Assembly: GCA_963971425.1 (NCBI GenBank)
Contig: OZ020516.1
Coordinates: 37,994,199-38,058,198, forward strand
Direction: 5' to 3'
DNA from: Bryoerythrophyllum caledonicum
Taxonomy: Eukaryota > Streptophyta > Bryopsida > Pottiales > Pottiaceae
Length of the DNA: 64,000 nucleotides
The notes below the pieces were generated by a model. It saw nothing but the letters and a program-made list of their open reading frames with translations. It did no database searches and had not been told where the DNA came from. Positions 17,959 through 25,895 of the stretch are shown one piece after another. The position numbers and the translations under genes are program-made. Every line of letters begins with the position of its first letter. Position 1 is the first letter of the stretch.

Positions 17959-18351
17959 CAACAACAACAACAACAACAACAACAACAACAACAACAACAA
18001 CAACAACAACAACAACAACAACAACAACAACAACAACAACAACAACAACAACAACAACAACAACAACAACAACAACAACAACAACAACAACAACAACAAC
18101 AACAACAACAACAACAACAACAACAACAACAACAACAACAACAACAACAACAACAACAACAACAACAACAACAACAACAACAACAACAACAACAACAACA
18201 ACAACAACAACAACAACAACAACAACAACAACAACAACAACAACAACAACAACAACAACAACAACAACAACAACAACAACAACAACAACAACAACAACAA
18301 CAACAACAACAACAACAACAACAACAACAACAACAACAACAACAACAACAA
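17959..18351 (+). repeat. Perfect (CAA)n tract forming the LINE 5' end
   Basis: About 130 uninterrupted CAA units begin directly at the left target-site duplication, so they belong to the inserted element. The frame shared with the downstream ORF reads AAC (Asn) throughout. Mixed CCA/CAACCA/AACCAC repeats follow to about 18535, reading Asn/His. The long poly-Val and poly-Leu frames on the minus strand are artefacts of this tract. Confidence 0.9.
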
Positions 18352-18558
18352 CCACCACCACCACCACCACCACCACAACCACCACCACCACCACCACCAC
18401 AACCACAACCACCACAACCACAACCACAACCACAACAACAACAACAACAACAACAACAACAACAACAATCACCACCACCATAACCACAACCACCACAACC
18501 ACAACCACAACCACAACCACAACCACAACCACAATAACAACCATAACAACAAAAGCAA

Positions 18559-18582
18559 ATGCCAAAAACTTTTCCATTGTAA
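18559..18582 (+). CDS. Possible upstream ORF, 7 codons
   Basis: ATG at 18559 opens MPKTFPL and stops at TAA 18580-18582, 46 bases before the ATG of the endonuclease ORF and in a different frame. It is the first ATG seen after the repeat leader on the plus strand. Whether it is translated is unknown. Confidence 0.3.
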   Translation: MPKTFPL

Positions 18583-18601
18583 ACTACTAATTACACGATG
18601 T

Positions 18602-18628
18602 GGAGACGTAGAAACTAACCCCGGCCCG
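18602..18628 (+). promoter_or_regulatory. 2A-like ribosome-skipping motif GDVETNPGP
   Basis: Codons 18602-18628 read G-D-V-E-T-N-P-G-P in the frame of the ORF whose ATG follows at 18629. Upstream residues (HCKLLITRC) include the KLL-type hydrophobic stretch often found before the DxExNPGP core. In 2A peptides the ribosome fails to join the final Gly-Pro and continues, releasing two proteins. Such motifs are known at the N termini of several non-LTR retrotransposon proteins. The frame is open back to 17936 but has no in-frame ATG before 18629. Confidence 0.85.
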
Positions 18629-20881
18629 ATGCCTAATGTCTTTCACAACCATCCAAAAAAACACAAAAGACTATCAAAAATCTATTTCATTCCGAACACA
18701 ATAAAACTCCACCCCGAATATCAACATTTAGCATCCTCTTTTGCGCCGCTCCTAAAAAATAATCACACACTTAACCAAAGCTACTCCACCCTCTACCCCA
18801 ACATCTCCCACTACATACACCAAAAAAAAAACAACCACCCATCTACACATATCTTATTCGCCATAATTACCACCCTTCATCCCTCAATAGACGAATGCAA
18901 CTATATCATTAACCAACATAATACCAACATAGACCCAACACACTGGACAAATATATTATTAAACACTCTATCCGCTCTACATAACCCTCCCGAAAGACAT
19001 ATAGATACACTCCACCCATACACCAAATTCATAGAAGAAAACCAACATCTCTTCACACACAAAACCTCTCTACACAATGACCTATATAACTTTATTCATA
19101 GCCAAATCCCACCCCCTTCCCCTAATGAACTACAACTCAAATTCCCCTACTTCCCACATAATCTTATTCTTGAAGCGCTTAGATGCTTCGAACCAATACA
19201 TGCTTACACACACCCCACCCCAACACCCGCCTACATTTCTCTTCCACTTTGTAGTCACGATAATATTGACAATAGAAATACATATATAACTTCATGGAAT
19301 GCCTCAACGTTAAACACCGCTTTACCATGCATCCACAACTTAACCGCCCACACCAACACACCACCCGCCATAATTGCCATCCAAGAAACTAAACTAACCG
19401 CTACTAAATCCACAAAATATATCCAAAAAATATTCCCCGACTATAAACTCATATTTAACAATACTCACTCTCTCACACGATGCATCCAACAACGAAGACC
19501 ATACACACCAGCAAGAGGTGGTCTACTCATGCTCATACACCAATCATATGCCTTCCCCGGGAATATTACTAAAATCCCCACCCTAGCTAATATATCACCA
19601 TATCTACAAATTATTGAAATTACTAACCGACCCCTCCAACCATGGCTCATTCTTCATCTATACATGCCCTCGCACAGAGAAGACTCTAGGCTTATTCCGG
19701 AGATTCAAAACTCCATCACTTCACAAATAAATACACACACTAACCACACAATAATACTTTGCGGAGACTTCAACCGAGACATTGCCCTTATTGGAAGGCA
19801 AAATGGAGGGGTTCTCACCCCCCCACTTGACATAGACTACCAATGGCAAAACTATACGGAAGACCTAGAATTATTTTTAATCCCAACCGATACACAATAC
19901 TCTCGTCAAGGTGGACTCAATTACACACACACTAGCCTAATTGATGGATTTTACATTAAATCACCTAACCATACCCAATACACATCCATCACCAATACCA
20001 CAACTAACCTAAACTCGGACCACTTCCCCATCCAACTCAATATACCTCACAACACCCTTATAAGTAGACCCCCCACAACCACCAACTCGAATGATATTAA
20101 AATACTAAACCCCATCCCAAAAGAAAACCTTGACAACTTCAACATAACATTCTTTGAAAAAAATTCACTACAAATAGACTCTCTCACAGATATTCTTTCT
20201 AGCCACCAACACCTCACACACATACAATGGCATGAAGCTTGCACAACTTTTGACAACCTTATTAGTGAAATCTCTACCATTTTAGAAAAAACTTGTAAAG
20301 CACCCCCGATTCCACAACTCACACCTAGAACCTCGAAACAAGGGGGGTATCTCCCGAGAAAATTAGCAAAAAAGTGGAAACAACATCTTGTAACATACCA
20401 TACAATTCGTAAGATAATTTATATAACCAAAACCATCCAAAATTGGCGAACTCACCCCATACTCTCGGAAATACAAAATCTCCGGCACCCTCAAATCCCA
20501 CAAGTACCACCACCCAACACCCCTCACCAAGACTGGCTAAAAGACATCGCAACCATTGCAAAAACAGCCAATAAAGAAGCTAGGAAAATTACTACAAAAT
20601 ATGCAAGAGAATGTGTCAAAAAATCCATCTCTAAATATCGTCAATTATACGAAACCAACCCAAAAAAGATTAATAGAAAAGTCTTCAAAAACAACACAAA
20701 CCTGCCACTAGACTGCATTTTAGATCAAAACAACAACATTTTAACCAGCCCAGACGACATCGCAAACGAAATACATTTTCAACAATCCATAAACAATAGT
20801 CCAACCACCCCCCCCTTGTCACTTTCAACCACAACATACACCAACATGCACGTGCGGGGTTCGGCAATACCCGTGGCATGA
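18629..20881 (+). CDS. LINE protein, AP-like (EEP) endonuclease part, 750 aa
   Basis: Cleaves target DNA to prime reverse transcription in APE-type LINEs. Residues 1-217 have no domain I recognise. The endonuclease spans about 218-470, with SWN (N224), IQETKL (E253), RGGLLML, GDFNRD (D380, N382) and NSDHFP (D464, H465), which are the catalytic and metal-binding positions of the exonuclease-endonuclease-phosphatase fold. Residues 471-740 are a Lys/Asn-rich linker leading towards the reverse transcriptase. The frame ends at TGA 20879-20881, while the continuation of the polyprotein is in another frame. Both frames are open from 20793 to 20881, and a run of eight C at 20808-20815 is the likely slip or indel site. 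Start: ATG immediately after the 2A-like motif. Confidence 0.88.
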   Translation: MPNVFHNHPKKHKRLSKIYFIPNTIKLHPEYQHLASSFAPLLKNNHTLNQSYSTLYPNISHYIHQKKNNHPSTHILFAIITTLHPSIDECNYIINQHNTNIDPTHWTNILLNTLSALHNPPERHIDTLHPYTKFIEENQHLFTHKTSLHNDLYNFIHSQIPPPSPNELQLKFPYFPHNLILEALRCFEPIHAYTHPTPTPAYISLPLCSHDNIDNRNTYITSWNASTLNTALPCIHNLTAHTNTPPAIIAIQETKLTATKSTKYIQKIFPDYKLIFNNTHSLTRCIQQRRPYTPARGGLLMLIHQSYAFPGNITKIPTLANISPYLQIIEITNRPLQPWLILHLYMPSHREDSRLIPEIQNSITSQINTHTNHTIILCGDFNRDIALIGRQNGGVLTPPLDIDYQWQNYTEDLELFLIPTDTQYSRQGGLNYTHTSLIDGFYIKSPNHTQYTSITNTTTNLNSDHFPIQLNIPHNTLISRPPTTTNSNDIKILNPIPKENLDNFNITFFEKNSLQIDSLTDILSSHQHLTHIQWHEACTTFDNLISEISTILEKTCKAPPIPQLTPRTSKQGGYLPRKLAKKWKQHLVTYHTIRKIIYITKTIQNWRTHPILSEIQNLRHPQIPQVPPPNTPHQDWLKDIATIAKTANKEARKITTKYARECVKKSISKYRQLYETNPKKINRKVFKNNTNLPLDCILDQNNNILTSPDDIANEIHFQQSINNSPTTPPLSLSTTTYTNMHVRGSAIPVA

Positions 20882-25667: not shown

Positions 25668-25805
25668 ACCTGCACCTGCATTACACCGTACACACCCTCT
25701 CTTTCTTAGAGACTTTTGGAACCTTGGATCCCTTGGTACTGGTCACTTGTTACTGGATACATAGTGTCCACCCTCGAAAGGGGGGAGTAGTTCCATACTA
25801 CTAAC

Positions 25806-25824
25806 CCATGCCCGGTGGGCATGG
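25806..25824 (+). promoter_or_regulatory. LINE 3'-UTR hairpin 1
   Basis: CCATGCCC-GGT-GGGCATGG forms a perfect 8-bp stem with a 3-base loop. Corresponding positions in the relics at 8.6 and 29.5 kb keep part of the pairing with changed bases. Such 3' structures are often the RT recognition site in LINEs; that role is inference here. Confidence 0.65.
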
Positions 25825-25859
25825 ACTTAGTGGTGGAATGAACGGACACTTTATCCACG

Positions 25860-25880
25860 CCGGCCCCCTTCGGGGACCGG
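25860..25880 (+). promoter_or_regulatory. LINE 3'-UTR hairpin 2, just before the TTC tail
   Basis: CCGG plus CCCC pairs with GGGG plus CCGG around a TTC loop, with one C/A mismatch. The relics at 16.7 and 30.8 kb have CCTCC-TTT-GGAGG-type stems at the same place, which is compensatory change. The repeat tail starts within a few bases. Confidence 0.7.
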
Positions 25881-25895
25881 AGTTCTTCTTCTTCT

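Follow-up and report, generated by a model that had tools for sequence, protein, structure and literature searches.

A high-copy, probable dual-endonuclease LINE with a 2A-like motif and a PCIF1-like domain in a streptophyte, perhaps moss-like, genome

Dualen/RandI elements are long interspersed nuclear elements (LINEs) described as carrying, within a single element, an apurinic/apyrimidinic (AP)-like endonuclease, a reverse transcriptase (RT) and a second endonuclease of the PD-(D/E)XK-like kind (PMC3636483, PMC4640811), together with an RNase H (PMC4640811) and a 3′ repeat tail that does not consist of A (PMC3747384). Their reported hosts are green algae, Chlamydomonas and its kin (PMC8226300), as well as cryptophytes (PMC12747079), and dual-endonuclease LINEs have been taken as a record of how LINEs exchanged a restriction-like nuclease for an AP-like one (PMC4640811). 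Here we describe an insertion in a 64,000-nucleotide stretch of contig C3 of a 437-Mb eukaryotic genome (the stretch is hereafter the window, and all element coordinates are window positions), which an initial annotation made from the sequence alone had presented as a young LINE encoding two endonucleases. With a probability of roughly 0.85, we read it as a recent copy, truncated at its 5′ end and broken in its frame, of a high-copy non-long-terminal-repeat retrotransposon that was mobile very recently, is of the dual-endonuclease (Dualen/RandI-like) kind and resides in a streptophyte, perhaps moss-like, host. With Dualen/RandI this element shares an AP-like endonuclease upstream of the RT, an RNase H, a C-terminal restriction-like endonuclease (RLE) recognised by motif, spacing and conservation, and a non-A tail; it differs in its (TTC)n tail, a 2A motif, a PCIF1-like domain and a streptophyte host. 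To our knowledge, no described element combines two DNA-cutting domains, a ribosome-skipping tag and a PCIF1-like domain in one protein.

The insertion occupies positions 17959-25895 (7,937 bp), exactly as initially annotated, and lies between the two identical copies of a 13-bp target-site duplication (TSD), TACACAGTACTTA, which an exact 13-mer search finds twice in the window and nowhere else there. The intact duplication and the existence of nearly identical relatives bear out the youth of the copy: among the first-family copies fetched for comparison (L036-L040), L037 differs from it by 14 mismatches and 6 gap openings over 7,949 aligned bases and L038 by 37 mismatches and 1 gap opening over 7,071, which places both in the 99.4-99.5% identity class. 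L040 is 89.9% identical across 6,630 bases, and L036 and L039 are 89.2% identical in the 500-base region around the frame break. The window copy contains two reading frames, at 18629-20881 (750 aa) and 20961-25667 (1,568 aa); by Pfam, the first carries an endonuclease/exonuclease/phosphatase (EEP) domain, and the second has matches to RVT_1, PCIF1_WW and RNase_H. Within 20.80-20.82 kb, the length of all five other copies is one base off that of the window copy, and the open frame is single and long in L036 (2,518 aa), L039 (2,604 aa) and L040 (2,777 aa), L037 and L038 being broken at other places. Because the frame break is private to the window copy, the two-protein layout of the initial annotation had to be abandoned in favour of the one open reading frame, ORF2, through which the related copies read. 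A full-length element was likewise ruled out, since two complete copies, which have an ORF1 upstream, exceed it in length by 5.0 and 5.6 kb. Truncated inside a (CAA)n tract and broken in its frame, the window copy, which also has no ORF1, cannot be autonomous.

In related copies ORF2 is a single frame of roughly 2,400 residues, and the two complete copies read (12.9 and 13.5 kb) have ORF1 in addition. With their upstream DNA these measure 12,943 bp in L036 (12-bp duplication) and 13,539 bp in L037 (13-bp duplication), and duplications of 12-13 bp flank all three copies tested (window, L036 and L037). ORF1 encodes 528 aa in L036 and has a homologue in L037; it matches nothing in Pfam or the Protein Data Bank (PDB), and its C-terminal 441 aa give a single weak NCBIfam match (16.4 bits, cut-off 224.7). 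The complete element opens with a long 5′ leader, followed by ORF1, then by a CAA-rich tract between the ORFs, and ends with an ORF2 made up of a short leader, 2A, EEP, RT, PCIF1-like domain, RNase H, CCHC knuckle and RLE. The family is high-copy and very recently mobile: when the C-terminal 186 aa were searched against the genome, identity was 92-100% in every one of the 150 scored places (the best 150 of 8,077 candidates), 14 of which belong to open frames 2,400 aa or more in length. A second family is about 70% identical; its member L043, with 70% identity to L036 over 2,357 aa, carries the 2A, the EEP, the RT, the PCIF1-like domain and the RLE signature. In a genome search with PF12237 (best 150 of 2,614 places), at least 42 loci share an identical E-value of 4.0e-11 (50.6 bits), and in at least 33 of them the open frame is exactly 3,087 aa long; L043 is the one of these 33 that was read. 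The 33 equal frames suggest a recent burst in the second family. ORF1 homologues are found there too (33% identity over 318 aa in L043, 31% over 491 aa in L053). A search for distant relatives returned 135 pattern matches in viral contigs and 37 in genome contigs, none of which was confirmed.

The identity of the EEP region is supported by Pfam both in the window (PF14529, E 1.9e-6, 28.2 bits, cut-off 27.4; PF03372, E 7.6e-5, 23.0 bits, below its cut-off of 24.5) and in L043 (PF03372, 25.9 bits, above the same cut-off), with weak exonuclease III matches as additional support. The RT of the window copy matches RVT_1 with an E-value of 7.2e-28, and RNase_H is matched at 3.2e-12 in the window and 7.4e-13 in L036. 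Among PDB chains, three named R2 RTs are the best relatives of the RT (112, 105 and 104 bits, with L1 at 68 bits); the RT appears to lean to R2 in this set of R2 and L1 enzymes only, in which the scores do not place it. Every motif listed in the initial annotation, on the EEP side and behind the RNase H, was located in the window, and its central claim of a LINE with two endonucleases is upheld by profile for the EEP and by motif for the RLE. The profile search that it had proposed recovered EEP, RT and RNase H as expected and gave no match at the C-terminus.

In LINE RLEs, the catalytic lysine is described as the first K of KX2KY (PMC5678591), and the RLE of R2Bm is reported to use Asp996, Asp1009 and a helix-borne Lys1026 (PMC10499050). 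In the present element, about 200 conserved residues after the CCHC knuckle hold PD, E and KX2KY in that order and at fitting spacing, the E lying 27 residues after the D of KPD and the K 16 further. The pattern CCHC...PD...[DE]...K..KY, composed after the sequence had been inspected, did not arise once when these 344 C-terminal residues were shuffled 100,000 times. In a C-terminal alignment of 17 rows from the two families, K209, P210, E238, K254, K257, Y258, C120, H133 and C138 are invariant, the exceptions being L005, which lacks D211, and L009, which lacks C123. What the element shares with R2 is this series of CCHC, PD, D/E and KX2KY together with the RT similarity to the three R2 chains; R2 differs in targeting 28S rDNA, whereas the insertions studied here have no common flank by eye and 12-13 bp TSDs. 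In addition, R2 is not known to carry either an EEP or an RNase H.

Purifying selection acts on both nuclease regions, with dN/dS, the ratio of nonsynonymous to synonymous substitution rates, at about 0.06-0.12. Between the window copy and L036 the ratio is 0.096 for the EEP, 0.072 for the RT, 0.081 for the PCIF1-like domain, 0.061 for the RNase H and 0.115 for the CCHC plus RLE. Between the window copy and L043 it is 0.106, 0.057, 0.092 and 0.059 for EEP, RT, PCIF1-like domain and CCHC plus RLE, respectively, all four to be taken as rough because dS is near saturation; dS is saturated for the RNase H, which makes its ratio not computable. Rows with saturated dS were excluded, as was the RNase H row of L046 (0.87), which is artefactual because L046 contains a stop. 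Because the ratios are low in both comparisons, both nuclease regions were evidently kept over the life of the two families, which fits use of both nucleases within the family and is evidence for use rather than proof of activity.

Directly before the ATG of the first frame lies, in frame, a 2A/StopGo-like motif. Its strict form occurs in 10 of the 11 copies read, L047 having NPRP instead; the stretch reads LILLSGDIEKNPGP in L036, L039 and L040 and consists of variants of LLLLGGDIETNPGP in the second family. As set out in a 2026 survey, a 2A/StopGo site is defined by (D/G/C/N)(V/I)ExNPGP with supportive upstream residues, one class of which is L-rich (PMC12846837). The core found here fits this definition and most upstream stretches fit the L-rich class, the fits being weaker for LITRCG of the window and for the first 2A copy of L044. 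The same survey found that plant viruses make no natural use of StopGo (PMC12846837), and it has been described that 2A-like sequences exist in other LINEs and that 2A sequences from other sources are functional in plant cells (PMC4981915). Among the matches listed in our search of the open-licence literature, no report of a 2A in a plant-lineage LINE was found. The elements that invite comparison are L1Tc of Trypanosoma cruzi and sea-urchin elements, which likewise have D[V/I]ExNPGP inside a LINE protein, at sites that the source calls internal (PMC4981915). The present element differs from them in also having an RLE and in its plant-lineage host. The 2A of L1Tc sits N-terminally, and a 2013 survey of 2A in LINEs reportedly dealt with elements of the AP-endonuclease (APE) type. 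In L044 and L053 the 2A motif stands twice in tandem, with a similar MPNI(L/F)KRHP stretch behind each instance, as in a duplicated 5′ module. An ORF1-2A-ORF2 polyprotein was considered for the second family and ruled out, as ORF1 ends with its own stop in L052 and L053.

The 5′ module with the 2A and the N-terminal region also shows an abrupt step in identity near 19350 (window 18551-19350 compared with L036 and L040). Against L036, identity per 100 bases is 0.57-0.70 up to about 19350 and 0.83-0.93 from there to 19750, and per 400 bases it is 0.85-0.97 beyond. The stretch from the 2A through the N-terminal region into the beginning of the EEP thus has a history different from that of the rest, presumably through template switching or recombination.

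Between the RT and the RNase H, about 124 residues match PF12237, the model of PCIF1 (CAPAM, the cap m6Am methyltransferase), which covers part of the methyltransferase. The match is above the curated cut-off of 31.1 in the window (E 1.8e-9, 37.8 bits), and in the genome search all of the best 150 of the 2,614 candidate places match. The element differs from PCIF1 in housing the domain inside a LINE protein and in what stands at the place aligned by eye with NPPF, the catalytic motif of PCIF1: HPHN in nine of ten copies and YPHN in one. We read the domain as captured, probably catalytically dead and still constrained. In the open-licence literature searched, no report of PCIF1 inside a LINE was found. 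A neighbouring stretch, upstream of this domain, is matched very weakly by the Pfam chromodomain model; because the unrelated TFIIA_gamma_N model does equally well on it (3 of 10 members, best E 0.024), the chromodomain is no more than a hint.

Several observations weigh against the reading as a dual-endonuclease element with a 2A and a PCIF1-like domain. Neither EEP profile reaches its cut-off in L036 (25.1 against 27.4 bits and 20.4 against 24.5), L043 has no Pfam RNase_H match even though its acidic residues are present, and the chains 8gh6 and 8ibw, which we take to be R2Bm, score 67 and 63 bits with the RT, no better than L1. The C-terminal region matches no model of the profile libraries searched and no PDB structure, and the putative RLE stands on motif, position and conservation. 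Its CCHC spacing of X9 is one residue above the X7-8 of the published RLE-type knuckle, CX2-3CX7-8HX4C, which lowers only the exact identity with that knuckle. A 90-residue spacer before the RNase H is less constrained (dN/dS 0.14 against L036 and 0.53 against L043), and the near-saturated dS noted above belongs here as well. Although PCIF1 structures exist, a PDB search with a profile built on the middle region gave nothing up to an E-value of 10, so the kinship to PCIF1 is a distant one. Finally, no in-frame ATG lies upstream of the 2A in the window, L037 and L038, so translation of the motif there needs an unusual start.

An ordinary EEP-type LINE, whose C-terminal CCHC region would only resemble an RLE and would bind nucleic acid without cutting DNA, could account for the C-terminus without a profile or PDB match and for insertions that look non-specific in their 3′ flanks; a CCHC linker is likewise found at the end of APE-type LINEs (PMC5678591). 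Such an element is very unlikely: against it stand the ordered PD, E and KX2KY past the knuckle, the C-terminal dN/dS of 0.06-0.12 and the three R2 RTs at the head of the RT relatives. A more serious alternative, improbable on balance yet deserving real attention, is that an R2-like RLE lineage gained its EEP independently of Dualen/RandI, so that the dual layout would be convergent and the clade separate. It draws on the three R2 chains being the nearest RTs by score, and on a PCIF1-like domain and a 2A that we do not know from Dualen. Kojima and Fujiwara are said to have reported in 2005 that Dualen has a cysteine protease; the Pfam matches up to an E-value of 10 in the window, L036 and L043 include no protease family, a search in which a divergent one could be missed. 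Opposed to convergence are the order EEP-RT-RNase H-RLE, which is that of Dualen, and the RT comparison itself, in which only R2 and L1 were represented and two R2 chains did no better than L1. By title and the start of the abstract, no report of Dualen in streptophytes was found in the literature searched. At the level of single features, the 2A-like octapeptide might rarely or never be translated, with ORF2 beginning at the ATG just behind it (MPN). This we consider unlikely: an ATG does follow the motif in all 11 copies, and upstream in-frame ATGs are missing in the three copies named above, but the peptide is conserved although its codons differ between the families, 11 of the 12 motif instances have a G before the D, the motif is doubled in tandem in L044, and L036, L039 and L040 do have an upstream in-frame ATG. 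For the PCIF1-like domain, an active N6-adenine methyltransferase working on the RNA cap or the DNA of the element was entertained, given that PF12237 matches in 10 of 10 copies, above the cut-off in the window, L036 and L043, and that dN/dS is 0.08-0.10 against L036, L040, L043 and L046 and 0.16 against L045. With HPHN or YPHN in place of the catalytic NPPF, activity of this kind is extremely improbable.

Table 1. Features of the insertion and dispersed repeat places in the window
Feature	Position	Strand	Basis or remark
Target-site duplication, left copy (TACACAGTACTTA)	17946..17958	.	exact 13-mer
(CAA)131 tract, truncated 5′ end of insertion	17959..18351	+	in longer copies between ORF1 and ORF2
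2A/StopGo-like motif LLITRCG-DVETNPG/P	18584..18628	+	in frame, directly before ATG 18629
ORF2 N-terminal region, ~215 aa	18629..19270	+	no Pfam match; part of 5′ module unlike L036/L040 subfamily to ~19350
EEP (AP-like) endonuclease region	19274..20068	+	SWN 19292, QETK 19382, GDFNRD 19763, SDH 20015; Pfam
One-base length difference, homopolymer run	20800..20881	+	private to window copy; first frame stops 20881
Reverse transcriptase (RVT_1)	21147..21938	+	YADD 21684-21695; Pfam, PDB matches
Very weak chromodomain-like stretch (YLCHW...KWLPQRNLF)	22986..23051	+	Pfam Chromo 3/10 members, best E 0.025
PCIF1-like domain (PF12237)	23412..23783	+	AHPHN 23682-23696; Pfam, alignment
RNase H	24198..24623	+	acidic D 24210, E 24348, D 24423, D 24600; Pfam
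CCHC knuckle CX2CX9HX4C	24990..25046	+	motif, alignment
Restriction-like endonuclease signature	25077..25406	+	KRHN 25077, KPD 25257-25265, E 25344, KINKY 25392
3′ untranslated region: multi-stem RNA, terminal hairpin, then (TTC)n tail	25668..25895	+	folding, consensus
Target-site duplication, right copy	25896..25908	.	exact 13-mer
Dispersed repeat places	3666-3888, 10985-11258, 12532-12880, 41361-41689, 53395-53681, 55013-55365, 60025-60377, 63921-63998	both	

The 3′ untranslated region (UTR) folds better than its shuffles (z -3.31, none of 200 as good), and a consensus of 18 copies has 41 pairs, four of them with changes on both sides, and a small covariation term (-1.04). At gathering scores, Rfam gives no match in the window. 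The terminal hairpin followed by (TTC)n is a likely recognition signal for the RT. All 14 distinct 3′ junctions, drawn from loci that match the search string with a visible flank, follow a TTC-rich tail and share no flank by eye; in L023 the tail exceeds the printed stretch. On the opposite strand at 29481-29569, about 89 bases are 79% identical to the 3′ end of the element and are followed by TTC repeats, being either an older fragment or a short non-autonomous derivative with the same 3′ end. Eight places in the 64 kb hold a dispersed repeat, at most about 350 bp long and found on both strands, which is 72-93% identical to the downstream flank of L037 and is possibly a short interspersed nuclear element or another short element.

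A mechanism that would connect these parts begins with ribosomes skipping the G-P bond at the 2A, which would release an ORF2 protein starting with proline. This protein may then bind the 3′ UTR, and target-primed reverse transcription would follow, a mode to which the TSDs, the structured 3′ end and the set of domains point. The two nucleases would share the two strand cuts between them: as non-specific insertion with TSDs fits an EEP, this domain would probably make a non-sequence-specific first nick, and the most economical role for the RLE, to which we give about even odds, would be action on the second strand. The RNase H would remove the template, and the PCIF1-like domain, its catalysis lost, may serve as a binding module for nucleic acid or capped RNA. 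Carried further, the element could represent a distinct LINE lineage on the land-plant side, with first- and second-strand cleavage split between the nucleases, an ORF2 freed by the 2A and a dead cap-methyltransferase domain that recognises the capped 5′ end of the element's RNA and thereby selects full-length RNA for integration; as a whole, this picture is quite doubtful.

As regards the host, the window contains at 34.9-37.0 kb a plant Pumilio gene with the NABP domain (PF07990, E 5.9e-38) and PUF, as well as SINA and GT92 genes, and the genome holds 58 light-harvesting complex (LHC) and 75 GRAS matches. Judged from these genes, the streptophyte-type genome of the initial annotation holds good. 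GRAS abundance is a sign of a land plant or a near relative, and so many matches suggest one. The nearest PDB entries to the LHC protein are 9vfj, a long polyprotein entry (532 bits), and then 7xqp (470) and 8htu (469), which we take to be moss complexes, the rest reaching at most 438; the host is a streptophyte and perhaps moss-like. The Pumilio gene lies in a segment (33000-38500) with a G+C content of about 0.54-0.62 within mostly A+T-rich DNA. Elsewhere in the window there are a long CTT/TCT-type microsatellite with a 12-nt period at 16592-17037, open in more than one frame, and a 78-nt direct repeat, 94% identical, at 27483-27560 and 27580-27657, with starts 97 nt apart. In the wider genome, a gypsy-like pol on a large contig, at L005, neighbours an old copy of the dual-endonuclease LINE family, and the small, unplaced contigs C238, C745, C583 and C127 (16-24 kb; L001-L004) carry a Ty3/gypsy-like pol that we assume to be fungal-like and possibly do not belong to the host.

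Neither a 2A in a plant-lineage LINE nor a PCIF1-like domain in a LINE was met among the open-licence papers listed in our searches. Because the family is high-copy and recently mobile, with both nuclease regions under selection, the role of two nucleases in one element becomes directly testable.

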